This document shows, piece by piece, positions 1,761-24,662 of a stretch of DNA of 24,662 bases; position 1 is the stretch's first letter, and each line of letters starts with the position of its first letter. Below the pieces are notes generated by a model that saw only the letters and a list, made by a program, of their open reading frames with translations, did no database searches and was not told where the DNA came from. This stretch comes from a virus. The stretch is from positions 1 to 24,662 of the IMG/VR virus record IMGVR_UViG_3300025849_000211. One strand, 5' to 3'. Both the position numbers and the translations under genes were made by a program.

Positions 1761-2645
1761 ATGTCAAATCTAGATGCATTTGGTGGACCAGGAGCACCCG
1801 TAGGACAACAAAATCCAAATGCAGGTTCTCAAAATCAAAATTCAAAGGCACCTTCTAAAACATTAGCCAACAAAGTAGGAAGTGAAACTATCGGTGTTGG
1901 TGCTAGTATTTTAAAAAATGGTGTCAAACAAACTATAGAAGATATTGCTTCAGGTGGCGTTGGCGGAATAATGAGTGCTATCAGAGGATTTGGTATACCT
2001 GTAGACGGACTATCTGGGATCTTTGGTGGTGGCAGTACCGCTAGTTGGTCTAGAGATGATACTGGTGATTGGCGTATGCGTTTAAGTATCCCAGTTGGCA
2101 TGTCTTTAGATGGTGTACTCCAAGCTCAATTAAATGAAACACAAGGTATGATTTTTCCTTATACTCCTAGTATTATATTCCAACATTCTGCACAATATAG
2201 TATGATGAAACCTACACATAGTAATTATCCTTTTCCGATATACCAAAGTAGTCAACCTGATGCATTACAAATTTCAGGCGAATTTTATGTAGAAAGTGCT
2301 GCTGAAGGATTGTATTGGGCGGCGGCCGTACAATATTTACGTTCAGTTACAAAAATGGCATATGGTTCAACAAGCAACCAAGGTGCTCCGCCCCCGATTA
2401 TTTTGCTAAACGGATATGGAGATTATGTTTTTAAAAATGTTCCATGTGTAATACAATCTTTTTCAGTTGATTTACCGACAGATGTTGACTACATATATTG
2501 TCCTGAGATAAACACTTATGCTCCTACAAGAAGTACTATAACAGTTGTTGCACAACCTACTTATTCAAGAAGCGAAATTCATAAATTTAGTTTAGATACA
2601 TTTGTTAAAGGCGGATATGCCAAAGGCAAAGGAGGATTTATTTAA
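1761..2645 (+). CDS. 48: baseplate tail-tube cap/initiator protein (gp48-like)
   Basis: A 294-residue protein that probably sits on the baseplate hub and nucleates the tail tube. Residues 1-100 are Gly/Gln/Ser-rich and low complexity. Residues 105-290 form the conserved part. The block LQISGEFYVESAAEGLYWAAAVQYL parallels T4 gp48 FTWDLTPRSTEDLMAIINIYQYF, and the block with VPCVIQSFSVDLP followed by STITVVAQPTYSR parallels T4 gp48 GPCQIQSIRFDKTP and STFTLEITMREI. T4 gp48 is 364 residues. The RBS AGGAG (1747-1751) is 9 bases before the ATG. It is the first gene of the plus-strand operon and its stop overlaps the gp53 start (TAATG). The alternative is the related gp54 paralogue, since both share the tube-like fold. 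That this is a baseplate/tube protein is firmer than the choice of 48 over 54. Confidence 0.72.
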   Translation: MSNLDAFGGPGAPVGQQNPNAGSQNQNSKAPSKTLANKVGSETIGVGASILKNGVKQTIEDIASGGVGGIMSAIRGFGIPVDGLSGIFGGGSTASWSRDDTGDWRMRLSIPVGMSLDGVLQAQLNETQGMIFPYTPSIIFQHSAQYSMMKPTHSNYPFPIYQSSQPDALQISGEFYVESAAEGLYWAAAVQYLRSVTKMAYGSTSNQGAPPPIILLNGYGDYVFKNVPCVIQSFSVDLPTDVDYIYCPEINTYAPTRSTITVVAQPTYSRSEIHKFSLDTFVKGGYAKGKGGFI

Positions 2646-2941
2646 TGTATTCACCGAGTAGTCCTTATTATAAAACACCTTTTGTTTCTGGCAGATATTT
2701 AGATATACTAAAAATAAGACCAATACCTGCCGAACCTGACGATGTACTTTATGTTATACAAGTTCAATATACACACCGACCCGATTTACTTGCATTTGAT
2801 ATGTATGGCGACAAAGATTTATGGTGGGTTTATGCACAGCGCAATATTGAAATATTAAAAGATCCTGTTTTTGATTTTGAAGCAGGTACAGAAATATTTG
2901 TACCAAAAGGTCCTTCACTCAAGCGTTTGTTAGGATTATAG
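2645..2941 (+). CDS. 53: gp53 baseplate wedge protein
   Basis: A 98-residue wedge subunit with a LysM-like fold. The signature is R45-P-D-L-L-A-F-D-x-Y-G-D then W60-W61-V-Y-A-Q-R-N, ending in DPVFDFEAGTEIFVP (73-87), typical of the gp53 family (first-half LysM-like repeat, then a beta hairpin). It is about half the size of T4 gp53 (196), the compact form I associate with marine T4-like phages. The start overlaps the upstream stop (TAATG, 2643-2647) with a strong GGAGG at 2631-2635. It ends in TAG immediately followed by the next ATG. In T4, gp53 helps join wedges around the hub and is needed for assembly of the six-fold baseplate. Confidence 0.88.
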   Translation: MYSPSSPYYKTPFVSGRYLDILKIRPIPAEPDDVLYVIQVQYTHRPDLLAFDMYGDKDLWWVYAQRNIEILKDPVFDFEAGTEIFVPKGPSLKRLLGL

Positions 2942-7527: not shown

Positions 7528-7977
7528 ATGAGCACACAAGAAAAAAGATTATATCAAGATATTAATATCAAATCTAATAAAAAACCTGATTATGGTATAG
7601 GATCAAAGACTTATAAAGGATTTAGTACAACTGATCCTGATCAAAACGGATTTAATTTATATGACTTTAGTCTTATTAAACAAGATATCATCAATCATTT
7701 TCATATAAGACAAGGCGAATTATTATCTAACCCGAACTTTGGAACAATTATTTGGGACGTTTTACACGAACCACTAACTGAACAGTTAAAGCAAATTATT
7801 ATTGATAATGTAACAGAAATCATTAATTACGATCCAAGAATAAATGTAAATTCAGTTACTGTAGATGAATACGAAAGTGGACTACAGATTGAAGCAGAAA
7901 TACTATTTTTAACTTATAATATTGTTGAAAATATGCGTCTAACTTTTGATCAAAATAACGGATTTTTAAATACCTAA
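7528..7977 (+). CDS. 25: gp25 baseplate wedge, gpW/gp25 (lysozyme-like fold) family
   Basis: A 149-residue wedge protein; T4 gp25 has 132. The family signature is present: FSLIKQDIINHFHIRQGELL with R61-x-G63-E64, NPNFG (68-72), a conserved EPLTEQ (81-86), and DPRI at 102-105, matching the EPRI that gp25 proteins use in the wedge core bundle. The name 'lysozyme-like' in this family is historical and no activity is expected. In T4 gp25 contacts gp6 and gp53 and helps lock the sheath to the baseplate. Start ATG has AGGG about 10 bases upstream, 15 bases after the spike stop. A promoter-like string, GTAAATA, overlaps the gap but is too close to the ATG to be convincing. Confidence 0.92.
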   Translation: MSTQEKRLYQDINIKSNKKPDYGIGSKTYKGFSTTDPDQNGFNLYDFSLIKQDIINHFHIRQGELLSNPNFGTIIWDVLHEPLTEQLKQIIIDNVTEIINYDPRINVNSVTVDEYESGLQIEAEILFLTYNIVENMRLTFDQNNGFLNT

Positions 7978-8033: not shown

Positions 8034-11000
8034 ATGTCCTCGACTGATAGACAAAATAGATTACTAGTAGCAGAAGATTGGAAGCGTATCTACCAAAGTT
8101 ATAGAAACGCCGATTTCAAATCTTATGACTTTGACAACTTGCGTAGAACAATGATAAATTATCTACGTCAAAATTACCCAGAAGATTTTAACGATTATAT
8201 TGAAAGTTCGGAATACCTTGCTTTGATCGACATGATTGCTTTCCTTGGTCAAAACATTGCTTTCCGTACAGATTTAAATGCACGTGAAAACTTTCTAGAA
8301 CTTGCAGAACGTAGAGAAAGTGTTCTCCGTCTTGCACGTACACTATCTTACAATCCAAAGCGTAATCAGTCAGCTAACGGATTACTTAAAATTGAAAGTG
8401 TTAGTACAACTGAAAGTGTTAGAGATAGTAATGCAATCAATTTAGAAAATCAAACAATTATATGGAATGATCCTAGTAATGCTAATTGGCAAGAACAATT
8501 TACAAAAGTTTTAAATGCAGCTCTTCCAGTTAATAACCCTGTAGGCAGACCAGTTAAAAAAGATACAGTAAATAATATTCCGACAGAGCAATATAGGTTT
8601 AGTAGTACTAATACCGGAGTACCTGTTTTTGGATTTAACAAAAATATAAGTGGTAGTACTAGTAGATTTGAAATTGTAAGCACTGATGTAAACAACGGAA
8701 CAATAGAAGAAGAAGCTCCGTATCCAGGAAACAATTTTGCATTTCTATATCGCAATGATGGCAAAGGGCCTAGTAGTACTAATAGTGGATATTTTTGTCA
8801 CTTTAGACAAGGCGCATTAGATAGCGGATCTTTTATTGTTGATGCACCAAGCTCTAATCAAGTTGTTTCAATTGATGCAACTAATGTTAACAATTCAGAT
8901 GTTTGGTTATATTCAGTAGATGATTTTGGACTAGAACAAGAACTATGGACAAAAGTTCAAGCAGTTGAAGGTAACAATGTAGTTTATAATAGTCTAAGTA
9001 AAAGTATCAGAAATATATTCAGTGTACTTACTAGAGCAAATGATAGAATTAGTTTAATATTTTCAGATGGAACTTTCGGCAATTTACCGCAGGGAAATTT
9101 TAAAGTATATTATCGAACTGGTAAAAATCAAAGAATAGTAATTGATCCAAAAGACATGCGTGGTATTAGTATACAAATTCCATATGTAAGCAAATCAGGA
9201 AAAAGCGAAAGTCTTTCATTAGTATTCCAATTAAAGTATACAGTAGACAATGCAAGTATTAGCGAAACAAATGCAAGTATTAAGCGTAATGCTCCATCTA
9301 ATTACTACACTCAGAATAGAATGGTAACAGCAGAAGATTACCAAATTGCTCCGCTTACATCAAGCCAAGAAATTATTAAAGTAAAAAGTGTTAATAGAAC
9401 ATCTAGCGGAATTAGTAGATATTTAGATCTTGTCGATGCAACTGGTAGATATAGTAAAACAAATTTATTTGCCGTAGACGGAATTTTAACAAGAGAATTT
9501 ATTGATACAAAGGTTGGATTTGATTTTGTTACTAAAACGGATATTGAGGGTGCAATAGCAAACGTTATACAACCAGTTTTAGAAAACAGGAAAATTAAAA
9601 ATTATTATCTTACTAATTTTCCAAAAATACTAGTAGGCGATTTAGGACTAGTATGGAATAGTAGTACAGTTGACGCAAATCAAAATACTGGTTATTTTAC
9701 AAACGCTGCAGGTACTAGACAACAATTAGGTACTTTTACAGCTAGTACATTAAAATTAATGCGAGCAGGAACACTACTTAAATTTATTGCTCCAACAGGC
9801 AAGCATTTTATGAAGACTGATAATAATAAAATAATGGACGGCGCAGCCGACCATCCAGGATCAGTTGATTACTTATGGGCAAAGATTGTAAGCACTGAAG
9901 GTAACGGAACAGTGGTTGCAGATGATGGTACAGGACCAGTTTTAATAAATGACATAATTCCACAAGGCGCAAAACTTACTCAAATTATTCCTAGAATTGC
10001 TAATGATATACAAGCATCAGTTCAAACACAACTTGTAGATCAAATTTTTGCTTATAGAACTTTTGGTTTAAGGTTTGATGTAAATTTAGGAGAGTGGAGA
10101 CTAGTGTCTTCTACTAATTTAGATAGTGCAAGTGAATTTAGTATTGGTAAAGCAGGCGATAATACTAACCAGCAATTAGATGCAAGTTGGCTGTTATTGT
10201 TTGAAACAAACGGCGAAACGTATACGGTTACATATAGAGGATCTAGATACTTGTTTGAAAGTGATGAAGAAGTTAGATTCTATTTTGATAATAGTGATAA
10301 AGTTTATAATAATAGAACTGGTAAAATTATTAAAGATAAAATTAGTATGTTAAGTATTAACCAAAAAGATCCGACATCAAATCCGGTTCCTTATACAGTT
10401 GATTATGATTGGGAAATTGTAGAAGATTATAGAGATACTGAAGGTTATGTAAACAGTAAAAAAGTACAAGTTAGTTTTTTTGATGCTGATGATGATGGAG
10501 TTGTTGATGATCCAAATTTGTTTGATGTTATTGTTAATGAGACAAATAATCCTTTAGAAAAATATATATTTTCTGAAAAGGTTACAAGTATTGACGGCGT
10601 TGAAGAATGGTTCTATAAACCGAATAGTGTATTAAATGTTGTTGTTCTTCAAAATAAAGCAAGTTTAGGATCTACTACATTATACACAGACGGCCAGATA
10701 TTTTATTATGTAGACGAGAATATTTTTGAAATACTTGATAAAACCACAAGTAACTTAAATATTTCACAAAAGTATAGAGCACAAATTGGTCGAGATAATA
10801 TTAAATTTCATTATGTTCATGCTGCAGACGAAAGTACACGTATAGATCCTAGTGTGAGTAATATTATTGATTCTTATTTACTAACAAGATCATATGATAA
10901 TAGTTTTAGACAATACTTAGATGGTATTACAAATACTAAACCATTAGCACCTAGTAGTGATAATTTATTTTTAAATTACGGTGCAAACTTGAATAACATT

Positions 11001-11516
11001 AAATCGTTAAGCGATGAAATTATATACCATCCAGTAAAGTACAAAATTTTATTTGGAACAAAGGCAGATGCAGAATTCCAAGCAGATTTTAAAATTGTAA
11101 AAAATCCTGATATTGTTATAAACGATAACGAAATTAAATCAAGGGTAATAAGTGCAATAAATGAATTCTTTGCTTTAGACAACTGGGACTTTGGCGAAAC
11201 TTTTTATTTTACAGAACTAACAGCATATGTGATGCAACAACTTGCACCAAATATTGTTACTTTTGTAATTGTACCAAAACAAATAGACCAAACATTTGGA
11301 AGTCTTTTCGAAATAAAATCAGAATCAGATGAAATATTTATTAGCGGAGCAACAGTAACTGACGTAGCAATAATAGACAATGTTACAGCTACACGTCTTA
11401 AAGCAGAAGGCGCAATTACAACAACTGCAACAACTACAGGTAATATTGGAATAACAAGTTCTAATACAAGTTCTAATACAAGTTCGACAAGTTCAAGCGG
11501 AGGCTCTAGCTACTAA
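8034..11516 (+). CDS. 6: gp6 baseplate wedge protein (baseplate J-like), large form
   Basis: A 1,160-residue wedge protein. The N-terminal block is diagnostic for gp6: FDNLRRTMINYLRQNYPEDF (about 34-53), then LALIDMIAFLGQNIAFRTDLN and ENFLELAERRESVLRLARTL, a helical region. The conserved C-terminal block near 1040-1085 (NEFFALDNWDFGETFYFTEL and QQLAPNIVTFVIVP) corresponds to the dimer/ring-forming end. T4 gp6 has 660 residues; the extra roughly 500 lie mainly in the middle (about 500-960). A Ser/Thr/Gly-rich tail ends the protein. In T4, gp6 forms the continuous inner ring that holds wedges together and drives the hexagon-to-star change. The stop overlaps the next ATG (TAATG, 11514-11518). 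Confidence 0.9.
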   Translation: MSSTDRQNRLLVAEDWKRIYQSYRNADFKSYDFDNLRRTMINYLRQNYPEDFNDYIESSEYLALIDMIAFLGQNIAFRTDLNARENFLELAERRESVLRLARTLSYNPKRNQSANGLLKIESVSTTESVRDSNAINLENQTIIWNDPSNANWQEQFTKVLNAALPVNNPVGRPVKKDTVNNIPTEQYRFSSTNTGVPVFGFNKNISGSTSRFEIVSTDVNNGTIEEEAPYPGNNFAFLYRNDGKGPSSTNSGYFCHFRQGALDSGSFIVDAPSSNQVVSIDATNVNNSDVWLYSVDDFGLEQELWTKVQAVEGNNVVYNSLSKSIRNIFSVLTRANDRISLIFSDGTFGNLPQGNFKVYYRTGKNQRIVIDPKDMRGISIQIPYVSKSGKSESLSLVFQLKYTVDNASISETNASIKRNAPSNYYTQNRMVTAEDYQIAPLTSSQEIIKVKSVNRTSSGISRYLDLVDATGRYSKTNLFAVDGILTREFIDTKVGFDFVTKTDIEGAIANVIQPVLENRKIKNYYLTNFPKILVGDLGLVWNSSTVDANQNTGYFTNAAGTRQQLGTFTASTLKLMRAGTLLKFIAPTGKHFMKTDNNKIMDGAADHPGSVDYLWAKIVSTEGNGTVVADDGTGPVLINDIIPQGAKLTQIIPRIANDIQASVQTQLVDQIFAYRTFGLRFDVNLGEWRLVSSTNLDSASEFSIGKAGDNTNQQLDASWLLLFETNGETYTVTYRGSRYLFESDEEVRFYFDNSDKVYNNRTGKIIKDKISMLSINQKDPTSNPVPYTVDYDWEIVEDYRDTEGYVNSKKVQVSFFDADDDGVVDDPNLFDVIVNETNNPLEKYIFSEKVTSIDGVEEWFYKPNSVLNVVVLQNKASLGSTTLYTDGQIFYYVDENIFEILDKTTSNLNISQKYRAQIGRDNIKFHYVHAADESTRIDPSVSNIIDSYLLTRSYDNSFRQYLDGITNTKPLAPSSDNLFLNYGANLNNIKSLSDEIIYHPVKYKILFGTKADAEFQADFKIVKNPDIVINDNEIKSRVISAINEFFALDNWDFGETFYFTELTAYVMQQLAPNIVTFVIVPKQIDQTFGSLFEIKSESDEIFISGATVTDVAIIDNVTATRLKAEGAITTTATTTGNIGITSSNTSSNTSSTSSSGGSSY
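11454..11495 (+). repeat. short tandem repeat (ACAAGTTCTAAT) at the gp6 C-terminus
   Basis: Two perfect 12-base units (11454-11465, 11466-11477) are followed by 9-base variants ACAAGTTCG and ACAAGTTCA. All units are multiples of three, so they lengthen the Ser/Asn/Thr tail without a frameshift. It looks like a slippage-prone low-complexity tail. Confidence 0.85.
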
Positions 11517-14500
11517 TGGCATATAACAACGATCAATCAGACCAACCGTTACCCGGAGGTAACGAAAATCGTAAAAGACAAAGTGCAAGTCATTTACCAA
11601 AGTACTATCGAACTCCTGCGAATAAAAAGTTTTTAGCAAGTACAATGGACCAGCTTATACAGCCTGGTGTAGTTGAAAAATTAAACGGTTATGTAGGAAG
11701 AAAAACAGCAAAGGCTTTTTCCTCTACAGATAATTACGTATCTGATGTAAGTGATGCTAGAGAAAATTATCAATTAGAACCAGCAAGTATTGTAAAAGAC
11801 AATTTAGGCAATGTAACATTTTATAAAGATTATAATGATTATATTAACCAACTTGATAGTTTTAACAAAGGCACAAGCGATCACAGTGTATTAAATCAAC
11901 AAGAATACTATGCTTGGGATCCTCACGTTGATTGGGATAAACTTACTAATTTTAGAGAATATTATTGGTTACCAAACGGTCCGCAAAGTTTTGGGTTGCC
12001 AGGTAATACAATAGATGTTGAAAGTACATATACAGTACGTATTGGCGATAATGCTGATAATAATACATATATCTTTAGTCCGGACGGATTAACAAATAAT
12101 CCTACAATAACATTATATAGAGGTATAACTTATAAGTTTGATATTGATACACCAAATTTACCGTTTACAATTAAAACTAAAAAGACTCTTGATGAAGGAT
12201 TTGATTTAGATAGTTCTAGTATACTCGTTTTAGAAGGAGTAAGTGTACAAGGTTTAGAAAAAGGTACAAGCACACTACAACTTGGAACTGACACACCGGA
12301 TATACTTTATTATATGGCGGCAAACGATTTACAAGCAAGCGGAACTATAGTTGTTAAAGACATTAGTGAAGCAACATTTATTGATGTTGAAAAGGAAATA
12401 CTCGGAAAGAAAACTTATAAAGCAAGTAACGATGTTGTTTTATCAAACGGAATGAAAGTGTTTTTTACTGGTGAAGTCGAACCAGCTTCTTATGCACAAG
12501 GTGCATTTTATGTAGAAGGTGTTGGCGACAAAATTAAACTTGTACCTGAAACTAATCTTAATGTTCCAACAGATTTTACAGACGATGTTGAAATAGCATT
12601 TGATGCTGAAGGTTTTGATAGATTGCCGTTTGGCAAAGCAATTGGTTATCCAACTAAGAAAGATTATTTGGTTATTAATCGTTCAGCAAAAGACGGAAAC
12701 CTTTGGGCAAGATATAATAGATGGTTTCATAAAAGTGTAATTGAAACTAGTGCAGTACAAAATAATCAACCTTCCGAATTAGATCAACTACAACGTGCAA
12801 AAAGACCAATTATTGAATTTGAAGCAGATATTAAATTACACAATTTTGGTACAAAAATTAAAAAAGATGTTGACTTAATAGATAATTTTACTACAGATGT
12901 TTTTAGTACTATTGAAGGCGGAATAGGATATAACATTGACGGAATTAATATTGTTAAAGGCATGCGTATTTTATTTACAGCAGATACTGACATACTTGTA
13001 AAAGGAAGAATTTTTGAAGTAGATATAATTAAGTTTGCCGGCGGCCAGTCAACTAACAACCAAATTACTCTTAAAGAAGTTGCTGATAGTATTCCTCAAG
13101 AAAATGAAACTGTACTTGCACTAAACGGTAATGTGTTTAAAGGTAAAATGCTATATTTCCAAAACGGATCTTGGCAGGAAACACAACAAAAAACAAATAC
13201 TAATCAACCGCCGTTATTTGATATTTTTGACAGTAATGGAAAAAGTTATTCAGATACTAGTACATACAAAGCATCAACATTTAGTGGCAACAAATTGTTT
13301 AGTTATAAGCAAGGAATAGGATCAGCAGACACTGAATTAGGATTTCCTTTAAGCTACCGTAGTATCTCTAATGTAGGAGATATTGTTTTTAATTACGACA
13401 TTCTTCAAGATACTATGACGTATACTAATGAAAATGATATTTTTACAGTTAATACAGATATTGGATTTTTAAGAAAGTATAGTGATCTAAATGTATTTGA
13501 AACAATAAGTGGTTGGAAAAAAGTTACAACATTATCAGAACAGCCAGTTATTCGACAGTATGTTTTTGATAACACAACAACCGGATTTGAAATTGATGTA
13601 TATAACAATAGCGGACTATTAAGCGACTTATGGGTAAGAGTTTACCTTAACAATAAATTACAATTTGAAAATGTTGATTATACTATTACAACTAATATTC
13701 AAAATAATGCACAAATAAATTTTAATAATACCCTCACACTTAATGATGATATAGTTATTAAAACTAAATCTAAAACTTTAAAAAACGACAATGGGTTTTA
13801 TGAGATACCATCGTCATTAGAAAGAAATCCTAAGAATGAAAATCTTAAAGAATTTACATTAGGAGAAGTTAACGATCATGTTAGTACTATTGTTGAAAAT
13901 TTAGATAACTTTACCGGTACTTTCCCAGGAGTTGGTAATTTAAGAGATCTTAATAACTTGTCAGATCTAGGAAGAAGATTTTTACAGCATAGTGCTCCTA
14001 TGAATTTATCTCTTTATCATATAACTGATAAGGATAGTAATATTATAAAATCGTTAGATTATGCAAGAACTGAATATAATAGATTTAAAAGAGAATTTTT
14101 GCAAGTTGCGTTAGATTCTGAGTTTCAAGGCACAACTAAAGATCATGTAGACAATATATTACAAACTATTAATAGTGTAAAAAATAAAGAAATGCCATTT
14201 TATTTTAGTGATATGGTACCAACTGGTGCTGTTAAAAAACTATCATATACTATATTAGATGCTGACGAGACATTTTTTGCTTTAAGTCAAGTTTTTGATA
14301 ATAATACACTATCAAAAAAAGCTGTTAGTGTTTACAAAAATAATACCCAATTAGTGTACAATAAAGATTACACATTTAATAGTGATGGATTTGCTGTTGT
14401 AACAGCAACAAAAGCACAAGATGATGTAATAGACATTTTTGAATACGAAACTACTAACGGAAGTTATGTGCCTCCAACACCTACTAAATTAGGTCTTTAC

Positions 14501-17500
14501 CCTGCGTACGAACCAATGTTATATAGTGATGATACATACCTAACAACAACTTCATTTATTCAAGGACATGACGGTAGCAGATTTGTTGCTTTTAACGATT
14601 ATAGAGATGATTTGTTATTAGAATTAGAAAAACGAATTTTTAATAATATTAAAATAAAATATGATACAACACTTTTAGATATAAATGATTTAGTTCCTGG
14701 AGAATACAGACAAACTGGAGTATCGTTTAGTGAAATTAATAAGTCAATATTAAGTAACTTCTTATCTTGGAGTAAATTTATAGATACAGATTATACTTTA
14801 CATAACTTCTTTGAAAGAACAAATACATTTACATTTAATTATAGTAAATCAAATTCACCAAGCGGAAATATTTTGCCAGGATTTTGGAGACAAATTTATA
14901 AAAGGGCATTTGATACAGATCGTCCACATACTCATCCTTGGGAAATGCTAGGACTTACAATAAAACCTAGTTGGTGGGAAACACAATATGGTCCAGCACC
15001 ATATACTAAAGATAATTTATTAATGTGGACTGATTTACAAAATGGTATTCTTAGACAGCCGGGTGTAAAATATAAGATTTTAAACAAATATAAAAGACCA
15101 AATTTATTAAGTAATATACCATCAGACGAATCAGGGAATCTTTTACCTCCGTTAAGTATTGGTTGGATTAGTAATTACCAACCCGACACAATAGATTTTA
15201 GTTTCGTGTTTGGAGACGGCGCACCAGTAGAATCTGCTTGGAGAAACAGCTCAGATTATGCATTTAGTATAATTAAGGCATTTATAATTAATAAACCAAG
15301 TTTAATATTTTCTACAGGATTTGATAGATTTAACCAAGTTCGTAATAGTGCAGGTTCTATCGTATACAAACCTACTAATAAAAGAATCAATTTAAAAGAT
15401 TTAGTATTTCCAAGTACATCAACTGATGCTACGCAAACTTTTACAAGCGGATTAGTAAATTACGTAGCTTCTTATATGGCCGGTGATGTCTTAAAGAATT
15501 ATGAAAAATACAAAGAAAATATTACTAGTATTGATAATCAAATAGGTTTTAAATTAGCAGGATTTACTGACATAGAAAAGTTTAAATTGATACTTGACAG
15601 TAGAACTCCAACTAATGAAGGTAATGTTTTTGTTCCAAATGAAAATTATCAAATATTTTTAAATACAAGCTCGCCTATAAAAACTGTAGAATATAGTGGT
15701 GTAATTATTGAACGCAGAACAGATGGGTATGTAATTAAAGGGTATAGTCCTAATAATACTATATTTAAATATTTAAGTGCGGTATCTAAACAGAACGATC
15801 CAAGTATTAATGTTGGCGGAATAAGCGAAAACTATGTTGTGTGGAATAGTGGTAAAACATATATTGCAGGTCAAAATGTTGAGTACCAGGGCTCTTACTA
15901 TAGAACAAAAACCCAACACCAAAGTACACAAACATTTGATGAAACTCAGTTTGCTAAATTAGCTGCTTTGCCATTAAAAGGCGGAAGAGAAGCTTTTATT
16001 AGAAAACAATTTACAGATACTATAATTAAAGAAATGCCGTATGGTACGTTATTAACCGAGATACAAGACGTAGTAGATTTTTTACTAGGATACGGAGAAT
16101 ATTTAAAAAGCCAAGGATTTATTTTTGATTATTTTCAAAGCGATAATAAAGTAGTTCTTACTGGCGGACACTGTGTAAACGAATTTTTATTCTGGACTAC
16201 ACAGAATTGGGCTGCTGGTAGTGTTATTACACTAAGTCCTGGAGCAGAACAAATTAAAATAACAACTAATTATTCGATGGTCGATAATATATTTGACGGA
16301 TTTTATGGTTACGGATTATTCAAAGCAGATGGACAAAAACTTGTAGAAGATTTTGCAAATCTTGGAAGATCGCCTAATGAATTTAGCATAGGTCCAAAAA
16401 ATACAGCAGACGGAATTTATTTTATATCGTTACCCTTAGTACAAAAAGAACATGTGGTTATTATTGATAACGCAACAGTTTTTGGCGATGTAATATTTGA
16501 TCAGCAACCAGGATATAGACAAGAAAGAATAAAAATACTAGGATATAGAACAACAGACTGGGATGGAAGTTTAAATATCCCTGGTTTTATATTTGACGAA
16601 CCTAATATTGTAGAATGGGAGCAATGGCAAGATTATAATATTGGTGCTGTTGTTAAAAATAAAGAATTTTATTATAGTGCTCCTAAGAAAGTTCCTGGCT
16701 CACAAATATTTGATGCAAAGAATTGGAACGTACTTTCGGAAAAACCGGAAGGCGGCCTTTATGCAAACTTTGAATATAAAACAAATCAATTTGCTGATTT
16801 TTATGATTTAGATTCAGATAACTTTGATGTTGAACAGCAAAAAATGGCACAGCATTTAATTGGTTATCAAAAACGCCAATATTTACAAAACATTGTAAAC
16901 GATGATGTAAGTCAATACAAATTTTATCAAGGATTTATTCAAGACAAAGGTTCTAAGAATGCTCTTACTAAATTGTTTGATGCACTTGCAAGTGACGACA
17001 AGGATAGTTTAGAGTTTTACGAAGAATGGGCTATTAAAGATGGACAATACGGAGCCAGCGAAGGCTTTGACGATGTTATTTTTAGACTAGACGAAGGAAA
17101 GTTTAGACTAGTGCCACAGCCTATACAACTAGTAAATTCAACTACTGGTGAAGAAACTGATTTAATTTATAGAATTAAACCATATGAAGTTTACCAAAAA
17201 TCTAAAAATTATGATCATAAACCATTGCCTGGAAAATATGTTTTTGACAGTTACACAAAAAATGCAGGATATGTAAATCAACAAGATGTTAGAGGAATAG
17301 TAACCAACTACGAAAACATACTTGACTTTAATTTTGCTGATATTGCAAAAAATGCATATATTTGGGTTGGAAATCAAGATAAAGACTGGACAGTGTATAA
17401 ACATGTTGACACTCCTTATGTAATAAACCAAATTGGAAAAGGTGAAGCAACATTTGACATTACAGTAGACACAAATGTTAAAGATTTTGTAAAAGGTGAT

Positions 17501-20500
17501 ATTATTGGTATTAATGCTATACATAATGATAGTACAAGTCTTAACCTTGACGGATTTTATAAGATTGATAGTATAAACAACAATGTTATAACTGTAGAAA
17601 CTGACGATCCAAAAACTACTGAAGATAGTGACCTAGTTGGTAATATAACAGTATTTTTAAAAGTTAGAGCAACAAATGTTGTTGAAGCAAACAAAATTGT
17701 ACAAACAAATTTACATGGTAACGATTTGTTATGGGTTGATTCAATAACAGACGACAACGAATGGGCAGTATATAAGAATACTAATTCATTTGTTGATCAT
17801 CAGCGTATTAATAATCCAGTATCTAATGCATACGGAAATATTGAATCTATTACTTTAGATGTTGCTAGTACTACTATTTTTAATCAAGGATTTCATAAAT
17901 TATCAAAATATGATAGAATAACGTTTAGTGGAATAGAAGGTACTGTAGAACTTAACAGTACTTCAAAATATGTTGGCGGAACTATTACATCATCATCGTT
18001 TCAATTATATGATGACGCTGACCTAACTATACCAACAAATTCGTCAAGTTTTACAGCACACACCTTCAAAACTGGTAAATGGGTAAACAACGGATCAAAC
18101 TTTGGAACAGCAATAGCTGTTGATGACAGAAATACTACATTATTAGTAAGTACACCAGATGACGCTGACGGAAAGGTTTATGTATATAACAGGCCGACTA
18201 ATGCATTAACATACACATTAACACAAACAATTGAACCTTTTAAGTTTGGTAACGATAGACAACGATTTGGAGCCGGCCTAGCAATAAGTCCAGACGGTGA
18301 ATATGTTGTAGTTGGTTCACCTAATGCTTCAAATGTAAAAACAAAATATTCAGGAGCATTTCAATCAGCTGTTGATTATCCCAAAAATAGTATAGTAGGA
18401 AAAGACCAAGGACTATGGCGTGCCAAAATAGATATTCAAGGCGAAGAAGACAATATTGTTTTTAATAGTTTTAGTTCAGTTGTTGAAAATATTCAAGCTG
18501 CAGGTTTGCAAAATAATAATACCGATTTTATTCCGGCATTAATTATTGGGGATTATGCAATTGATACTAATAATAACTTACTTGCATTTAATGGTTTACC
18601 AACAAACCATATACTTGTTCGAGCACCGTTTTCGTTGTATGAAGGTAGTGGAATAAACGATCAGGTAAGATTGCAATGGAATTCAATAACATACGGAAAC
18701 CAAGATTTATCAGCATTAACAGCAAGAGCTCCATTTAATGGAAGTCATTCAGTAATCACAGATGCATTTTTAAGTCAAGAACATACAATACAAAAGAAAA
18801 TTGACGAAGTTTTATATGTTAATAGTAGCACAACCTCTGTTGATATAGGAGATGTTTTACAAACTCCGGTTGCTACTGGTATAGTTGAATATACTAAATT
18901 AGTAGGCGCTGAACTATTAATATATCTAAGAGACGTAAACGGTACATTTAATACTAGCGATAGTTTATTTAGAGACGATGGTGACTTTATCGGCGAATAT
19001 GTTAAACAAGGACCAATAGATCCTGTCAATACTTCAACCGTTTGGGGTGGATATTGGTGGATTGACACACCGGTGTATACACCAACTTCATCTACAACAA
19101 ATATTGACAAGGGCGCCGGATTAGTTTACTGGGATCTAATATCAGATAGTACTCCAACTGGTAGATACTACTATTCGAGTTTAGATTATTTAACAACTGA
19201 TATTAGTAGTCAAAATACTTTTACTGGTTATATAAGAACGTTAACATATAGAGGGCTTCCTGGAGCAGGCGGAAGTAATGATACTTTTTCAAGTAACTTA
19301 TATGTAATGCGAGCTCCTAAAGCACTTAGCGATACTATATCTCCAGGTGACCCAGTCAGTGTTTATGTTAACCAATTACCGCAATACACAACCGGTGACT
19401 TCAAAGACCTAACTACAATAGGATTAAGTTCTACAACTACAAACACAACAAGAAACGTTTATGATGTATGGGACGGATACATTAATTTAGCTTTTACTAA
19501 AACAGATGCAGCAGATAATCCGTTTGAGCCAAGAGTAGGTGATACAGTTCGTGATTTAACAACAGGAGCAACAGCTGAAGTAACATTTTATCAAAGAAAC
19601 AGTTTAAATGCCACTATATTTGTAAAAAATTTAGCAGGTTCATTTAGTGTTGGAGATGATTATGGACAAAATGCTGAAATAGAATTTTTAGGTACACCAG
19701 GTGATCCTGATGTAAACTATCAAACCGATCGTGTAATGGGTGAAATACAATTTACATCATTAGGGTATACACCTGCTGGAATAGGTAAAATGCTAGTGTT
19801 TGATAGCGGAAATCCTATTACATTAAGTGCAGAAGATAATATTAATGAAGTTGAATATTGGATGTATACTGAAGGAAATGTTTTAGGTATTCCTAGATTA
19901 CCGAATCCACCAAGTAGTATAAACAACGATTGGGAACAAGTTTATAGAATTCCTGCAGAATCAACAGGAACACCAAGTGGATTTACTAACCAAGGACTAT
20001 ACACAGTATACAGTAGATCAGCACCTGGCAGGTATGATGAAATTGGTACATATACTGTTCCTGAACAACAGTCAAATTTTAAACTTGGTAGCAATATTAA
20101 AATTGCAAAAAATAGTAACGGTTTATATAGAACAATGGTGCATGCTGAAGGCACTCAGACACAATCATTACCAGGAAGAATTTATTTTATTAAAACAGGT
20201 ACTGAAAATAATATTACATATACATGGGAATATGCAAAAAATAAAAAGTACAAAGGTGTTTTTAACGAAAGTATAAATTATTTTACTAAAGATATTGTTT
20301 ACAGAGAAAATCCTGCTGTAAGTGGAACCGGAGTATTATATGTAGCAAAAACTAATCTTGCACCAGGCCCATTTAGTATAACTGACTGGACAAGTACAGA
20401 CGACTTAATTGACTACGTTGGATTTATTCCAAACTCTTCAGGTACTAGTGTTATTAATGATAGTACAGACGGAAGCACAGTTCTTGATCAAGGATTACTT

Positions 20501-23500
20501 TCAACTTTTGGAAATGAATTTGATATTAATAAAAACGGTGACGTACTAATTGCTAATGCATTATACGATAATACAAAACCTAATCAAGTTGTTGTATACC
20601 GACAAAATAACGGCTTCTGGGAAAGAGGCCAAGAAATACAAGCACCAGATAAAACTAGTGGCTTCGGAAAAGCAATAGCGATATCAGATGACGGCATGTA
20701 CATAGCAGTTTCAGAACCATTTAATGATGATTACAATGCCGATCAAGGTAAAGTTTCAATTTATCATCAAGTTAATGGCGTGTTTACGTTTTTACAAGAT
20801 TTACAAAGTCCTAACAACGAACGTGCTGAAAGATTTGGTTGGAAATTGCAATATGATGGAAATAAATTATTTGTAACTTCAAGAAACGCTGATTCAACTG
20901 AAACAACTACATTTGATTCTAATACTACTAGATTTGATAATTCTTTTACAGAAATAGTTGAAGGAAGAAAAGACGTTGGCGTAGTATTTGTATACGAAAA
21001 AACTCCAAATGGAATGTTATTTGCACAAACTATTCAAATTCCAGATTCAGATGTTAATACATTTGGTAGAAATATACATGCAAAACAAAACCATTTTTAT
21101 GTAGGATTAGAAACTAAGGTAAGTGAAAACTCTCAAGGCCAAGTTATTGATTTTAGAATAGATCAAGATGTTACAATGTGGGAAACACATAGATCTTCAA
21201 ACAAAACAGTTGATGTAGAAAAAATTAAAAAAATATTCTTATATAATATTAAAGAAAATGAATTACTCACATATCTCGATTATATAGATCCAATACAAGG
21301 TAAAGTAGCAGGTCCTGCTGAACAAGAACTTACATATAAAACATATTTTGATCCTGCTGTTTATACTAATTCTAGTAATATTGGCGCAATACAAGATCAA
21401 ACAGCTGCCTGGGGAACAAAACAAGTTGGTGAGGTTTGGTGGAACTTAACAACAGCTAAGTTTACTAATCCTTATCAAGGAAGCATTCAGTATGCAACAC
21501 AATCTTGGAACAAAGTATTTCAAGGAAATTCAATTGATATTTACGAATGGGTAGAATCAGATATACTTCCAAGCGCCTGGGACGCTCAAGCAGATACTGA
21601 AACTGGATTTGCCAAAGGATATAGCGGTAAAAGTTTATATGGAGATTCATCTTACTCAACAAGACGAGTTTATAATGAAATTCTAAAGACTTTCAAAACA
21701 ATGTATTATTTCTGGGTAACAGATAAAACTATTGTTCCTAATGTTGAATTTAGAAAAATTGATACTAGAGAAATTGCACAATATATCACAGACCCCGCAG
21801 CAAAAGGTCATAGATTTGTTGCACTTATTTCTCCAGAAAAATTTGTACTATACAACTGCGAACCTTTGATAAAAGGGACAGATGTTGCTATTAATATACA
21901 ATTTTGGACAATTAAAAATCAAAACCAAAATGTTCATAACCAATATCAAATTGTTAGTGAAGGACTTGAAACTAGTCAACCGAATCCCGATGTTGTTATA
22001 AAATGGTTTGATAGTTTAATCGGATATGATGCACAATCAAGAGTAGTACCAGATCCGACACTTAGTGACAAAGAAAAATATGGATCACTTAATAGGCCTA
22101 GGCAGTCTTGGTTTAAAAACAAAAACGAAGCACTGAAACAAGTTATTGAGCGTGTAAACCTTGTTCTTACAAAGAATTTAATTATTGACGATAAAGATAT
22201 AAGCAAATTATCGTTAAACGATCCGATATTAACTACAGCTAGTAATTTATATGATGTTGAAGTAGAAACAGTAGCAGATCTTGCAACAGTTGGAACAGAC
22301 AAAATTGAAAGAGCAGTACTATCTCCTGTAATCAAAGACGGAAAAATTACAGATGTAACTATTATTAATCCTGGTAAAGGATATAGATATCCACCTGCTA
22401 TTTCGATATCAGGCAACGGCACTGATGCAGAATTGTTACCAGTAATAGACGGAGCAGGTAAGATAATATCTGTAACAGTGTTACAACAAGGAACATATTA
22501 TGATTCAAGTACTATTTTAACTGTACGAAATTTTGCTGTATTAGTTAAAACTGATGAAACTTTGCTAGGTAAATGGGCTTTGTATGAAAGAGAAAACAGA
22601 ATCTGGAATAGAATAAGAAGTCAATCTTACAATGTAGGAATATTTTGGAATTATGTTGACTGGTATGCTACAGGATACAATGAAGCAACTGATATTGATT
22701 ACCTTATTGACAATAGTTACGAATTGACAAGTTTAGATAATACTGTTGGAAGTATTGTAAAAATATCAAACATTGGTACAGGCGGCTGGTTGTTAATTGA
22801 AAAAATATCAAACAATGACACTGACGATTATACACAAAATTATAAAACTATTGGTAGACAAAACGGAACAATTAATTTTAAAAATACATTATATGATTCG
22901 TTAGCAGCAAACACAGGGTTTGATACAATTAGTTTTGATACTAAAATATTTGACAGTGAACCAATTAAAGAACTTAGAATTATTTTAAACACAATAAAAG
23001 ATGATATTTTAATTGATGAATTGTTAGTTGAATTTAATAAATTGTTTTTTGCAAGTTTGCGTTATGTATTTGCAGAACAAACATATGTAGATTGGGCGTT
23101 CAAAACTAGCTTTATTAAAGCCAAGCATAATGTCGGAAAACTTAGAGAAGATATTACTTTTAATAATGATAATTTACCTAGCTACGAAGCATATGTTAAA
23201 GAAGTTAAACCGTTTGCAACAAAAATTAGAGAATACCTAAGTGCATACGAAGGTATTGATCCTACAAGAACAGTAACAACTGACTTTGACTTACCAGCAT
23301 CTTATAATTCTATAGAAGGTAAAATATTACCAAAGAATATCAAAGTTATTGATGATGTACTAGTAGGAACAACAACTGATTTAGAAACTTATCCTAATAA
23401 AAATTGGTTAGATAATAGTAGCTATAGCATTGTTAGTGTAAAACCGGTTGACGGCGGACAAGGTTATACCTCTCCTCCAGTATTAACATTAACTGGCGGA

Positions 23501-24662
23501 GGCGGAACAGGCACTGTTCTAAAAACATATTTAGGTACAAAAGGCGATGTAACAAAAGTTGATGTAGTTGTTTCTGGTAGCGGATATTACAGCACACCTG
23601 TAATCTCAGTTAACGGCAATCTTATAGATGGCGGCAGAGATGCAACCTTCAGTGTAGAACTAGGTAATAATCCAGTAAGAGGAATTACTACTACAGTTAA
23701 GTTTGATAGAACTACAGGAACATATGTATATACGCAAATTGATCAAACACAAACATTTACAGCATCAGGATCTCAGTTTGAATTTAATTTGAATTGGCCT
23801 ATTGATTTAAAAATTACTGATATAAGTGTATTTAGAAATAATATTGAACAATTAAGTAACGAATATACCTATACCAACATGTTAGATGCTACAGCAAGCT
23901 ACGAAAGATATTATGGACAAGTATCTTTTACAAATAAACCAGATGCTAACGATATAATTGTTGTTAATTACAAACTTTCTCCAGATTTATATCAAGCCCA
24001 AGATCGAATTAGTAATTTATATAATCCGCAAGAAGGTCAATTAGGTAAAGAATTAAGCCAGTTAATGACAGGCATTGATTACGGTGGCGTAGAAGTTAAG
24101 AGCTTTGGGATGTCGCAGGGTCAAGGTTGGGATTCAGATGCATGGTTTGGTTCAACCTGGGATAGTTATGATAACACGTACAATGATGAAATATTTGAGT
24201 TAGATGGTTCAACAATTAGTATAGAGTTAAGTAAACCACTTGAAAATGGCGTACAATATAATATATACTTAAATGGTGTAAGAATCGATGATCCAGATTA
24301 TCCAAGTAATCCTACAAATCCAAATGCAAGATGCCAAAGTATTACAGGTGACGGGGTACAGACTACAATATTCTTAGATAATGACGGACTTAACATTAAT
24401 GGTGAAGGAAGTCCTTTAGACTCAGAATACAACAATGGTGCATTGATTGCCGAGAACAATGGTACAGTGTTTGACAGAGCCCTAACTGTAAACGGATTGA
24501 AACTGGTTGTTGCAGGAGCAGTAGGCGGACAACTTGCAGTACCAGATGAATGGGCAAAGAAAACTGCAAGAACATTTGAATTAATGACTGATCCTAACGG
24601 TGCTGGCATTAACACTACACATCAACGCAATTTTCTTAAAACACTAAAAGGTGACGTAGGAA
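11516..24662 (+). CDS. giant virion structural protein, gp7 position, partial (at least 4,382 codons)
   Basis: Reading begins at ATG 11516 in TAATG with the gp6 stop (GGAGG at 11499-11503) and stays open to the window end, 4,382 full codons. No stop was met on direct reading. Modules in order: cupredoxin-like sandwich (about 163-282: PTITLYRGITYKFDI, then DILYYMAAN); NLWARYNRWFHK and RAKRPIIEFE (394-435); PPTPTKLGLYPAYEP (986-1000); HTHPWEMLGL (1138-1147); W/Y chitin-binding-like module (1443-1482); MPYGTLLTEIQDVVDFLLGY (1507-1526); QQKMAQHLIGYQKRQYLQN (about 1774-1792); two WV..DxxWxVYK units (1949, 2072); FG-GAP-like segments (about 2190-2320 and 3000-3200); WWNLTTAKFTNPYQG (3308-3322); NRPRQSWF (3526-3533); glycine-rich beta repeats (about 3603-3672 and 3963-4055); YVDWAFKTSFIKAKHNVG (about 3858-3875); LMTGIDYGGVEV (4183-4194). 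I recognise several blocks as recurrent in large structural proteins of marine T4-like phages. Position after gp6 suggests a gp7-type wedge role, but T4 gp7 has only 1,032 residues. No signal peptide, membrane segment or enzyme motif was noticed. A fusion of several baseplate/fibre genes is possible. Confidence 0.9.
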   Translation, partial: MAYNNDQSDQPLPGGNENRKRQSASHLPKYYRTPANKKFLASTMDQLIQPGVVEKLNGYVGRKTAKAFSSTDNYVSDVSDARENYQLEPASIVKDNLGNVTFYKDYNDYINQLDSFNKGTSDHSVLNQQEYYAWDPHVDWDKLTNFREYYWLPNGPQSFGLPGNTIDVESTYTVRIGDNADNNTYIFSPDGLTNNPTITLYRGITYKFDIDTPNLPFTIKTKKTLDEGFDLDSSSILVLEGVSVQGLEKGTSTLQLGTDTPDILYYMAANDLQASGTIVVKDISEATFIDVEKEILGKKTYKASNDVVLSNGMKVFFTGEVEPASYAQGAFYVEGVGDKIKLVPETNLNVPTDFTDDVEIAFDAEGFDRLPFGKAIGYPTKKDYLVINRSAKDGNLWARYNRWFHKSVIETSAVQNNQPSELDQLQRAKRPIIEFEADIKLHNFGTKIKKDVDLIDNFTTDVFSTIEGGIGYNIDGINIVKGMRILFTADTDILVKGRIFEVDIIKFAGGQSTNNQITLKEVADSIPQENETVLALNGNVFKGKMLYFQNGSWQETQQKTNTNQPPLFDIFDSNGKSYSDTSTYKASTFSGNKLFSYKQGIGSADTELGFPLSYRSISNVGDIVFNYDILQDTMTYTNENDIFTVNTDIGFLRKYSDLNVFETISGWKKVTTLSEQPVIRQYVFDNTTTGFEIDVYNNSGLLSDLWVRVYLNNKLQFENVDYTITTNIQNNAQINFNNTLTLNDDIVIKTKSKTLKNDNGFYEIPSSLERNPKNENLKEFTLGEVNDHVSTIVENLDNFTGTFPGVGNLRDLNNLSDLGRRFLQHSAPMNLSLYHITDKDSNIIKSLDYARTEYNRFKREFLQVALDSEFQGTTKDHVDNILQTINSVKNKEMPFYFSDMVPTGAVKKLSYTILDADETFFALSQVFDNNTLSKKAVSVYKNNTQLVYNKDYTFNSDGFAVVTATKAQDDVIDIFEYETTNGSYVPPTPTKLGLYPAYEPMLYSDDTYLTTTSFIQGHDGSRFVAFNDYRDDLLLELEKRIFNNIKIKYDTTLLDINDLVPGEYRQTGVSFSEINKSILSNFLSWSKFIDTDYTLHNFFERTNTFTFNYSKSNSPSGNILPGFWRQIYKRAFDTDRPHTHPWEMLGLTIKPSWWETQYGPAPYTKDNLLMWTDLQNGILRQPGVKYKILNKYKRPNLLSNIPSDESGNLLPPLSIGWISNYQPDTIDFSFVFGDGAPVESAWRNSSDYAFSIIKAFIINKPSLIFSTGFDRFNQVRNSAGSIVYKPTNKRINLKDLVFPSTSTDATQTFTSGLVNYVASYMAGDVLKNYEKYKENITSIDNQIGFKLAGFTDIEKFKLILDSRTPTNEGNVFVPNENYQIFLNTSSPIKTVEYSGVIIERRTDGYVIKGYSPNNTIFKYLSAVSKQNDPSINVGGISENYVVWNSGKTYIAGQNVEYQGSYYRTKTQHQSTQTFDETQFAKLAALPLKGGREAFIRKQFTDTIIKEMPYGTLLTEIQDVVDFLLGYGEYLKSQGFIFDYFQSDNKVVLTGGHCVNEFLFWTTQNWAAGSVITLSPGAEQIKITTNYSMVDNIFDGFYGYGLFKADGQKLVEDFANLGRSPNEFSIGPKNTADGIYFISLPLVQKEHVVIIDNATVFGDVIFDQQPGYRQERIKILGYRTTDWDGSLNIPGFIFDEPNIVEWEQWQDYNIGAVVKNKEFYYSAPKKVPGSQIFDAKNWNVLSEKPEGGLYANFEYKTNQFADFYDLDSDNFDVEQQKMAQHLIGYQKRQYLQNIVNDDVSQYKFYQGFIQDKGSKNALTKLFDALASDDKDSLEFYEEWAIKDGQYGASEGFDDVIFRLDEGKFRLVPQPIQLVNSTTGEETDLIYRIKPYEVYQKSKNYDHKPLPGKYVFDSYTKNAGYVNQQDVRGIVTNYENILDFNFADIAKNAYIWVGNQDKDWTVYKHVDTPYVINQIGKGEATFDITVDTNVKDFVKGDIIGINAIHNDSTSLNLDGFYKIDSINNNVITVETDDPKTTEDSDLVGNITVFLKVRATNVVEANKIVQTNLHGNDLLWVDSITDDNEWAVYKNTNSFVDHQRINNPVSNAYGNIESITLDVASTTIFNQGFHKLSKYDRITFSGIEGTVELNSTSKYVGGTITSSSFQLYDDADLTIPTNSSSFTAHTFKTGKWVNNGSNFGTAIAVDDRNTTLLVSTPDDADGKVYVYNRPTNALTYTLTQTIEPFKFGNDRQRFGAGLAISPDGEYVVVGSPNASNVKTKYSGAFQSAVDYPKNSIVGKDQGLWRAKIDIQGEEDNIVFNSFSSVVENIQAAGLQNNNTDFIPALIIGDYAIDTNNNLLAFNGLPTNHILVRAPFSLYEGSGINDQVRLQWNSITYGNQDLSALTARAPFNGSHSVITDAFLSQEHTIQKKIDEVLYVNSSTTSVDIGDVLQTPVATGIVEYTKLVGAELLIYLRDVNGTFNTSDSLFRDDGDFIGEYVKQGPIDPVNTSTVWGGYWWIDTPVYTPTSSTTNIDKGAGLVYWDLISDSTPTGRYYYSSLDYLTTDISSQNTFTGYIRTLTYRGLPGAGGSNDTFSSNLYVMRAPKALSDTISPGDPVSVYVNQLPQYTTGDFKDLTTIGLSSTTTNTTRNVYDVWDGYINLAFTKTDAADNPFEPRVGDTVRDLTTGATAEVTFYQRNSLNATIFVKNLAGSFSVGDDYGQNAEIEFLGTPGDPDVNYQTDRVMGEIQFTSLGYTPAGIGKMLVFDSGNPITLSAEDNINEVEYWMYTEGNVLGIPRLPNPPSSINNDWEQVYRIPAESTGTPSGFTNQGLYTVYSRSAPGRYDEIGTYTVPEQQSNFKLGSNIKIAKNSNGLYRTMVHAEGTQTQSLPGRIYFIKTGTENNITYTWEYAKNKKYKGVFNESINYFTKDIVYRENPAVSGTGVLYVAKTNLAPGPFSITDWTSTDDLIDYVGFIPNSSGTSVINDSTDGSTVLDQGLLSTFGNEFDINKNGDVLIANALYDNTKPNQVVVYRQNNGFWERGQEIQAPDKTSGFGKAIAISDDGMYIAVSEPFNDDYNADQGKVSIYHQVNGVFTFLQDLQSPNNERAERFGWKLQYDGNKLFVTSRNADSTETTTFDSNTTRFDNSFTEIVEGRKDVGVVFVYEKTPNGMLFAQTIQIPDSDVNTFGRNIHAKQNHFYVGLETKVSENSQGQVIDFRIDQDVTMWETHRSSNKTVDVEKIKKIFLYNIKENELLTYLDYIDPIQGKVAGPAEQELTYKTYFDPAVYTNSSNIGAIQDQTAAWGTKQVGEVWWNLTTAKFTNPYQGSIQYATQSWNKVFQGNSIDIYEWVESDILPSAWDAQADTETGFAKGYSGKSLYGDSSYSTRRVYNEILKTFKTMYYFWVTDKTIVPNVEFRKIDTREIAQYITDPAAKGHRFVALISPEKFVLYNCEPLIKGTDVAINIQFWTIKNQNQNVHNQYQIVSEGLETSQPNPDVVIKWFDSLIGYDAQSRVVPDPTLSDKEKYGSLNRPRQSWFKNKNEALKQVIERVNLVLTKNLIIDDKDISKLSLNDPILTTASNLYDVEVETVADLATVGTDKIERAVLSPVIKDGKITDVTIINPGKGYRYPPAISISGNGTDAELLPVIDGAGKIISVTVLQQGTYYDSSTILTVRNFAVLVKTDETLLGKWALYERENRIWNRIRSQSYNVGIFWNYVDWYATGYNEATDIDYLIDNSYELTSLDNTVGSIVKISNIGTGGWLLIEKISNNDTDDYTQNYKTIGRQNGTINFKNTLYDSLAANTGFDTISFDTKIFDSEPIKELRIILNTIKDDILIDELLVEFNKLFFASLRYVFAEQTYVDWAFKTSFIKAKHNVGKLREDITFNNDNLPSYEAYVKEVKPFATKIREYLSAYEGIDPTRTVTTDFDLPASYNSIEGKILPKNIKVIDDVLVGTTTDLETYPNKNWLDNSSYSIVSVKPVDGGQGYTSPPVLTLTGGGGTGTVLKTYLGTKGDVTKVDVVVSGSGYYSTPVISVNGNLIDGGRDATFSVELGNNPVRGITTTVKFDRTTGTYVYTQIDQTQTFTASGSQFEFNLNWPIDLKITDISVFRNNIEQLSNEYTYTNMLDATASYERYYGQVSFTNKPDANDIIVVNYKLSPDLYQAQDRISNLYNPQEGQLGKELSQLMTGIDYGGVEVKSFGMSQGQGWDSDAWFGSTWDSYDNTYNDEIFELDGSTISIELSKPLENGVQYNIYLNGVRIDDPDYPSNPTNPNARCQSITGDGVQTTIFLDNDGLNINGEGSPLDSEYNNGALIAENNGTVFDRALTVNGLKLVVAGAVGGQLAVPDEWAKKTARTFELMTDPNGAGINTTHQRNFLKTLKGDVG
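22322..23686 (+). repeat. paired glycine-rich beta-repeat modules inside the giant protein
   Basis: Two separated segments share the pattern G-x-G-Y-x-x-P-P-x-[IVL]-x-[IVL]-x-G followed by a K-x-x-x-V-x-V-x-x-x-G-x-Y strand pair. The first is at about 22322-22530 (NPGKGYRYPPAISISGNGT; IISVTVLQQGTYYD), the second at about 23420-23686 (GGQGYTSPPVLTLTGGGGTG; VTKVDVVVSGSGYYSTPVIS). Similarity is at protein level only. About 900 bases of a different conserved block (DWAFKTSFIKAKHNVG) lie between them. Extended, surface-exposed beta structure is inferred. Confidence 0.6.

Follow-up and report, generated by a model that had tools for sequence, protein, structure and literature searches.

In phage T4, gp7 (1,032 aa) is a protein of the baseplate wedge that is listed at 6 copies (PMC3004832). 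The protein is very divergent in T4-like phages, where gp7, gp10, and gp12 are described as forming up to nine clusters (Sullivan et al. 2010, PMC3037559). Directly behind a gp6-type gene, jumbo phages encode giant proteins that have been annotated at 3,326 aa in RaK2, 3,333 aa in PBECO4, 3,340 aa in CBB, 3,771 aa in Vibrio 2.275.O, 3,807 aa in SCTP-2, 3,857 aa in PA5oct, 4,449 aa in Atu_ph07, and 4,555 aa in Phosso. The order gp25, gp6, giant is common to PA5oct, CBB, Atu_ph07, and Phosso. Presence of the giant in the virion was shown by others for two of these relatives. The record of the PA5oct giant (gp355) carries an ESI-MS/MS note, and CBB_236 stands in the CBB virion mass spectrometry table with the figures 21 and 7.72 (PMC5259590), which are probably peptides and percent coverage. 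Two cyanophage giants, of S-B43 (4,337 aa) and Syn33 (Syn33_092), are likewise encoded behind gp25 and gp6.

The window, which is the whole stretch of DNA analysed here (24,662 bases), contains a giant of this known kind. Its very long frame is genuine and takes its place in an existing family, and so it is no oddity. The less expected part is a mobile domain at the cut end of the frame that travels between phage proteins.

The giant frame and its neighbours

The genes of the window, from left to right, are as follows.

842..1672, minus strand: late-transcription sigma factor, gp55-like (phrog_12791)
1761..2645, plus strand: virion structural gene, 294 aa (phrog_12050)
2645..2941, plus strand: baseplate wedge subunit (phrog_7145; Phage_gp53 note on the syntenic gene in CBB)
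2942..5656, plus strand: virion structural gene, 904 aa (phrog_11190)
5656..7512, plus strand: gp5-like hub and tail lysozyme gene (phrog_13211)
7528..7977, plus strand: gp25-like baseplate wedge gene (phrog_261 / phrog_43 "baseplate wedge subunit"; syntenic GPW/gp25 genes)
8034..11516, plus strand: gp6-like baseplate wedge gene, 1,160 aa (phrog_10646, E 1.4e-299)
11516..24661, plus strand: the giant frame, 4,382 codons from an ATG

The giant frame has no stop and is still open at the 3′ edge of the contig, as a preliminary description of this DNA had stated. The IMG/VR record is the window itself, exactly 24,662 bases long, and the stop codon lies beyond it. The final base of the gp6-like gene is also the first base of the giant's ATG, which is preceded by a Shine–Dalgarno-like GGAGG. 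Shortly before the end of the gp6-like gene lies a perfect 12-base tandem repeat of 2.7 copies (window 11454-11485). Neither Rfam families at gathering score nor tRNAs were found in the window.

The preliminary description took the frame for one real protein, and the analysis agrees. A chance opening is ruled out: the longest open run in the three frames of 100 base shuffles was 131 codons, and dN/dS (Nei–Gojobori, ten 430-residue windows over the first ~4,300 residues) stays below 0.2 throughout, at 0.06-0.18 against the relative L006, 0.06-0.11 against L010, and 0.08-0.19 against L018. Purifying selection appears to act along the giant's entire length. The other two plus-strand frames across the region have longest open runs of 117 and 36 codons, and the GC content of the giant by codon position is 43/36/17%. 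Several genes or internal starts in place of one gene, a possibility raised at the outset, are not supported, as relatives keep a single frame and internal ATGs are rarely accompanied by a Shine–Dalgarno-like match (at least 4 bases, ATG starts only; 1 of 29 in-frame against 19 of 223 out-of-frame). In all 26 of 26 IMG/VR records, drawn from 80 loci and mostly long contigs, the end matched by the window's last 367 residues falls inside one stop-free open frame of 4,506-5,268 codons. Judged from its sequence, the frame is a genuine single gene under constraint. Its visible chain has a mass of 491.9 kDa, close to the half megadalton first estimated; the further suggestion that it ranks among the largest virion proteins of T4-like phages yields no size record, given Syn33_092 of the T4-like cyanophage Syn33, with 6,376 aa at the gp7 map position.

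Profile comparison assigns the giant to PHROG 10938, "virion structural protein" (E 0, 1038.8 bits, four stretches, the best at aa 721-1696), a family already known from jumbo phages and filed under the category "head and packaging". By pairwise alignment, the eight jumbo giants named above belong to the same family. They share with the window the place behind the gp6-type gene and the conserved blocks 1-1900 and 3200-4000, but they are shorter (3,326-4,555 aa), whereas near relatives of the window reach 5,254 aa. The order gp53, X, gp5, gp25, gp6, giant is found in the window, PBECO4, and CBB; in RaK2 and PA5oct some genes from gp53 to the giant are annotated as hypothetical, and small genes are interspersed. 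In SCTP-2, the usual gp6-type slot directly upstream of the giant is occupied by a 9,291-base gene (L108:6606-15896), possibly a second enlarged baseplate protein. Among 50,697 phage records, residues 1-1495 match 61 and the next 1,666 residues match 57. The last 1,220 residues match 146, of which 85 are of cyanophage type and match through the mobile domain only; the remainder are chiefly jumbo phages, among the matches listed.

Giants of 12 near relatives reach a stop, at 4,504 to 5,254 residues. The giant of the nearest complete relative, L088, has 5,048 aa; as far as window residue 4290, the two giants are 94% identical. Six others have 4,981, 5,085, 4,922, 5,254, 5,254, and 4,999 aa, that of L091 has ~4,960 aa after removal of 20 residues preceding its start, and those of L067, L073, L077, and L080 have 4,622, 4,504, 4,559, and 4,739 aa; L022, whose stop at 3,680 aa lies six bases from the contig end, was excluded. 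Because L114 and L115 read 1,096 codons beyond the point where the window stops, the full protein of the window is expected to have ~5,400-5,500 residues. The open frame of G020 came to 5,260 or 5,960 in two computations, and in L026 the longest ORF starts ~1.1 kb past the start of the match. In IMG/VR, one scan gave at least 599 confirmed stretches, out of the 600 compared. Six of seven larger records searched by PHROG contain the giant family, including G027 (299,910 bases); in G028 (252,603 bases) the mobile domain is present (L253) and a giant of the PHROG 10938 family was not detected.

Domain make-up and the relation to gp7

The following features are distributed along the giant.

12017..12370, plus strand: cupredoxin-like fold, aa 168-285 (model; VIA Z 10.4, rmsd 2.3, 100 aligned to 2dv6_A)
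15842..15931, plus strand: weak CBM5/12 chitin-binding-type module, aa 1443-1472 (Pfam E 0.0052)
16925..16978, plus strand: part of an F(Y/H)-x6-KG(S/T) block, aa 1804-1821 (resembles T4 gp7 FYSTKG by eye, not significant)
18062..21205, plus strand: seven FG-GAP-like repeats, aa 2183-3230 (repeat model from the window's own repeats)
18410..20047, plus strand: insert of ~550 residues separating repeats 2 and 3, aa 2299-2844 (in only some relatives)
22967..23098, plus strand: strongest helix-forming stretch, aa 3818-3861, also given as 3823-3861 (simple propensity scan; the block aligns to RaK2, CBB, and PA5oct)
23732..23995, plus strand: small beta domain, aa 4073-4160 (model; VIA Z 9.1 to 8hqo_P over 70 residues, Z 5.8 to 5iv5_A)
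24419..24661, plus strand: first 81 residues of the mobile domain, aa 4302-4382 (remainder outside the contig)

Conservation to the eight distant giants is concentrated in two parts, residues 1-1900 (interrupted near 200-400) and ~3200-4000. Residues 1900-3200 are covered much less, and the eight have no match to the window's FG-GAP-like repeats. The PHROG 10938 family gains from this a domain map in which a conserved core is distinguished from exchangeable outgrowths, a separation that makes the gp7 question testable.

The outgrowths are of several kinds. The cupredoxin-like domain is found by Foldseek at E 2e-4 to 1e-3, and by eye the loop of 12 sequences has no Cys or His-Met pair of the copper-ligand pattern. 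In L028 (10001-13558), a chitin-binding-type stretch, also recognized by eye, is nested within the cupredoxin-like domain as a module within a module. The CBM5/12 match of the window misses the Pfam gathering score (17.2 bits vs. 26.2), and a profile of relatives (A3) matches chitinase A1 (1ed7) at E 0.0017. Integrin-type FG-GAP propellers have seven repeats, and the seven repeats of the window can be read from their sequence as a seven-bladed propeller. Pfam FG-GAP_2 recognizes one stretch (E 5.6e-8, 33.3 bits vs. a cut-off of 23); with the window-derived model, seven repeats are found again in L091 and L093 and fewer in other near relatives. As modelled, the small beta domain is similar to domains found in phage necks and in fibre attachment, and also to one in T4 gp6. 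Foldseek gave no match at E 0.001 for the model containing it, and the immunoglobulin rows at the top of that list were disregarded for their very low TM-scores. The best matches in a viral structure library are uncultured phage proteins and a fragment of an Atu_ph07 structural protein, most of them with low TM-scores.

The frame is probably a single gene that encodes a giant protein of the baseplate wedge in a jumbo-related phage. Blocks aa 1-1900 and ~3200-4000 would form a body seated on the gp6–gp25 wedge, where T4 has gp7, and the cupredoxin-like, chitin-binding-type, FG-GAP, and terminal mobile domains would be exchangeable outgrowths round the rim. The outgrowths may make contact with the envelope of the host and assist in committing the baseplate to contract. 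We infer the wedge location, the gp7-like role, the copy number, and the host contact of the giant; the conserved gene order and the modular make-up are observed directly.

The preliminary description had assigned the giant to the map position of T4 gp7. The position stands, directly behind gp25 and gp6; the searches gave no evidence of common descent, and the gp7 reading is, as far as the sequence tells, positional only. In T4, gp7 lies between gp6 and the gp8–gp12 block. The gp6 side of the position is seen in the window and the downstream side lies outside it. Behind the giant of the nearest relative stand fibre-type genes, one of which has a tail collar domain, and no named gp8. A radical-SAM gene also lies downstream of the giant in this relative (L089:11552-12937), as do several in Phosso and Atu_ph07 (L002; L004), perhaps as a modification or glycan cassette.

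Giant profiles aligned to T4 gp7, alone or with four relatives, reach a Prob of 0.1-1.0% in hhalign, for which the positive control is weak: jumbo gp6-like against T4 gp6 gives Prob 8, compared with 99.3 for cyanophage gp6 against T4 gp6. With a control of only Prob 8, a missing gp7 signal in the jumbo lineage says little. No gp7 match was obtained in PDB sequence searches (P0001, A2, A3, A4), and T4 gp6, gp8, gp9, gp10, gp11, and gp12 gave no match to the full giant profile. By fold, two models, with aa 1187-3539 outside both, returned no gp7 chain among the matches listed; each list was dominated by one domain, and the negative result carries little weight.

Two cyanophage giants match T4 gp7 residues 729-762 (profile columns 736-769) with Prob 89.8 over 34 columns, around FYSTKG. 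The window giant reads FYQGFIQDKGSKNALTKLF at residue 1803, and a similar block occurs in 5 of 5 distant jumbo giants compared. T4 gp7 has the map position in common with the giant and a block that looks alike by eye, but a significant sequence alignment of gp7 with the giant family was not found, and the jumbo block aligns to the cyanophage pair at only 2%. A scan for an FY..KG pattern gave two matches in S-B43, one in T4, and one elsewhere in CBB, against 0.094 expected per shuffled giant; it permitted at most five residues from FY to KG and hence missed the jumbo block, which has six.

A stretch of the S-B43 "baseplate wedge initiator" (aa 451-805) matches L088 (aa 3714-4062) at E 5.6e-7 and was rejected as a shared core, the similarity being a GxGYxxPP repeat. 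In hhalign, S-B43 against the jumbo core gives Prob 0.2 without the repeat and 87.9 with the repeat alone, and residues 3700-3960 are unmatched. Repeats of this type are present at window aa 3620, 3981, and 4021. They recur in structural proteins of cyanophages as well as in Atu_ph07 and Phosso, with L085 and L110 among the loci, and can mimic homology between unrelated giants. The S-B43 giant shares the repeat with the giant of the window and carries the mobile domain, but the core of the cyanophage giants is not alignable to that of the window. In Syn33, the mobile domain sits in another gene, Syn33_094.

Withdrawal of the S-B43 core match makes the wedge explanation less likely and strengthens a rival in which the giant is attached to the baseplate as an adhesin or as a fibre-network protein, with the gp7 slot filled by the enlarged gp6-like protein or another gene. 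The rival agrees with the lack of a gp7 match and of a core shared with the cyanophage giants that bear the gp7 motif, with the fibre-attachment-like beta domain at aa 4073-4160 and the sugar-binding-type and FG-GAP modules, and with a gp6-like protein of 1,160 aa, compared with 660 in T4. The PHROG label "head and packaging" also counts against the wedge, as does a passage by the Atu_ph07 authors on baseplate genes, in which the giant (gp180) is absent. We nevertheless consider the adhesin rather unlikely, as the giant lies directly behind gp25 and gp6 like gp7 in T4, and the cyanophage giants at the same position match T4 gp7, which makes a very large gp7 possible.

Less probable still is a giant that is translated whole and then cut after assembly into several virion proteins. 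Its size and modular build would suit such a fate, and the figure of 7.72 for CBB_236, if it is percent coverage, is compatible with partial recovery; this computational analysis found no evidence of processing.

The mobile domain and the end of the contig

A giant wedge protein would carry the mobile domain as its terminal outgrowth. The domain, ~300 residues long, is sharply delimited by approximately EYNNG at one end and SGYVVD at the other. In one scan, 53 IMG/VR loci match the window's last 97 residues, many at >90% identity, and an alignment search confirmed the domain at 259 IMG/VR loci, of which 80 were retained. The giant's core is present in the same locus in 15 of the 80, and 22 others (within L209-L246) have an HGTH/HGSH block, as in subtilase, no more than 50 residues past the domain. 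Copies of the domain include L114:8001-9035 and L166:6001-6888. Hosts of the domain in phages appear, from their sequences, to be giant baseplate-type, subtilase-like, and fibre-type proteins and other ORFs. In the subtilase-like hosts, L149 and L161 also among them, the domain sits just ahead of the HGTH block, so the subtilase must tolerate ~300 inserted residues. The part behind the domain in L149 has a Pfam Peptidase_S8 call.

The domain is exchanged between these proteins. Clustering of 74 full-length copies by flank similarity (single linkage, 8 of 82 loci dropped as not full-length) gave 12 clusters, a rough figure in which giants and subtilase-like hosts are merged, and between clusters with dissimilar flanks the DNA of the domain is up to 96.1% identical. 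The 85 of 50,697 phage records with the domain are all named Synechococcus, Prochlorococcus, or cyanophage.

More distant relatives of the domain are found in bacteria, at 24 loci in one scan and with 42-56% identity. The genomes are named Flavobacteriaceae, Opitutales, Actinomycetota, Gammaproteobacteria, and others, and nearly all are metagenome-assembled or single-cell genomes; the short contigs may be phage DNA that was misbinned, an explanation less likely where the contig has 96 to 338 kb. The bacterial carriers are not phage baseplates and instead resemble secreted proteins or lipoproteins, ~340-710 aa long where complete, with the relative at or near the C-terminus in many. By eye, many have signal-peptide or lipobox-like starts, which seven gammaproteobacterial-type copies lack.

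An alignment of 14 copies of the mobile domain contains an invariant E-H-x-F-H-T-x-H core. Searches with one or a few copies against Pfam, NCBIfam, PHROGs, and PDB sequences gave no credible family; weak matches, Zincin_2 at E 0.22 among them, fall well short of the cut-offs. When modelled jointly with the core of the giant, the domain is weakly predicted (pLDDT blocks ~24-75). An intein was rejected, as by eye the ends D-x-EYNNG and SGYVVD are without the terminal Cys/Ser and His-Asn pair of the splice-site rules. The literature search, a small part of which was aimed at domain mobility, found no description. Tentatively, the domain may be an undescribed and perhaps, from its invariant block, metal-dependent enzyme whose coding DNA is passed on as a cassette among phage proteins that are otherwise unrelated, and which is common to envelope-type proteins of bacteria, often marine ones. 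It would then be a portable host-contact part and not a property of one phage protein. The wider interest of the locus lies in this domain. Its near-unchanged recurrence in phage proteins of different kinds, together with its relatives among the envelope-type proteins of bacteria, points to a target at the cell surface that all of them share.

Assemblies commonly break at near-identical segments that many genomes share. Among 53 contigs that carry the mobile domain, 30 end no more than 900 bases past the matched stretch and another 3 in the 200 bases that precede it, compared with 7 of 80 contigs at an arbitrary end of a giant-family query. Contigs break at the mobile domain more than elsewhere, and so the end of the window is probably explained by this near-identical shared segment. 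The window departs from L088 at aa ~4291, and the junction into the domain is genuine. The independent contig L128 agrees with window 16371-24609 at 99.7% without a gap, junction included, and L029 has the same junction behind a giant that is only ~55% identical. An assembly artefact in the long frame, or in the final 280 bases of it, which the preliminary description had allowed for and which the departure from L088 and the clustered contig ends might suggest, is highly improbable, as L128 and L029, together with L114 and L115, whose sequence crosses the entire domain and goes on beyond it, rule out a chimeric end.

Two further arrangements of the domain were observed. In L146, a stop lies within the mobile-domain match. 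In G027, which also encodes a giant of the PHROG 10938 family, the mobile domain is located in a separate ORF of 1,497 codons (L249).
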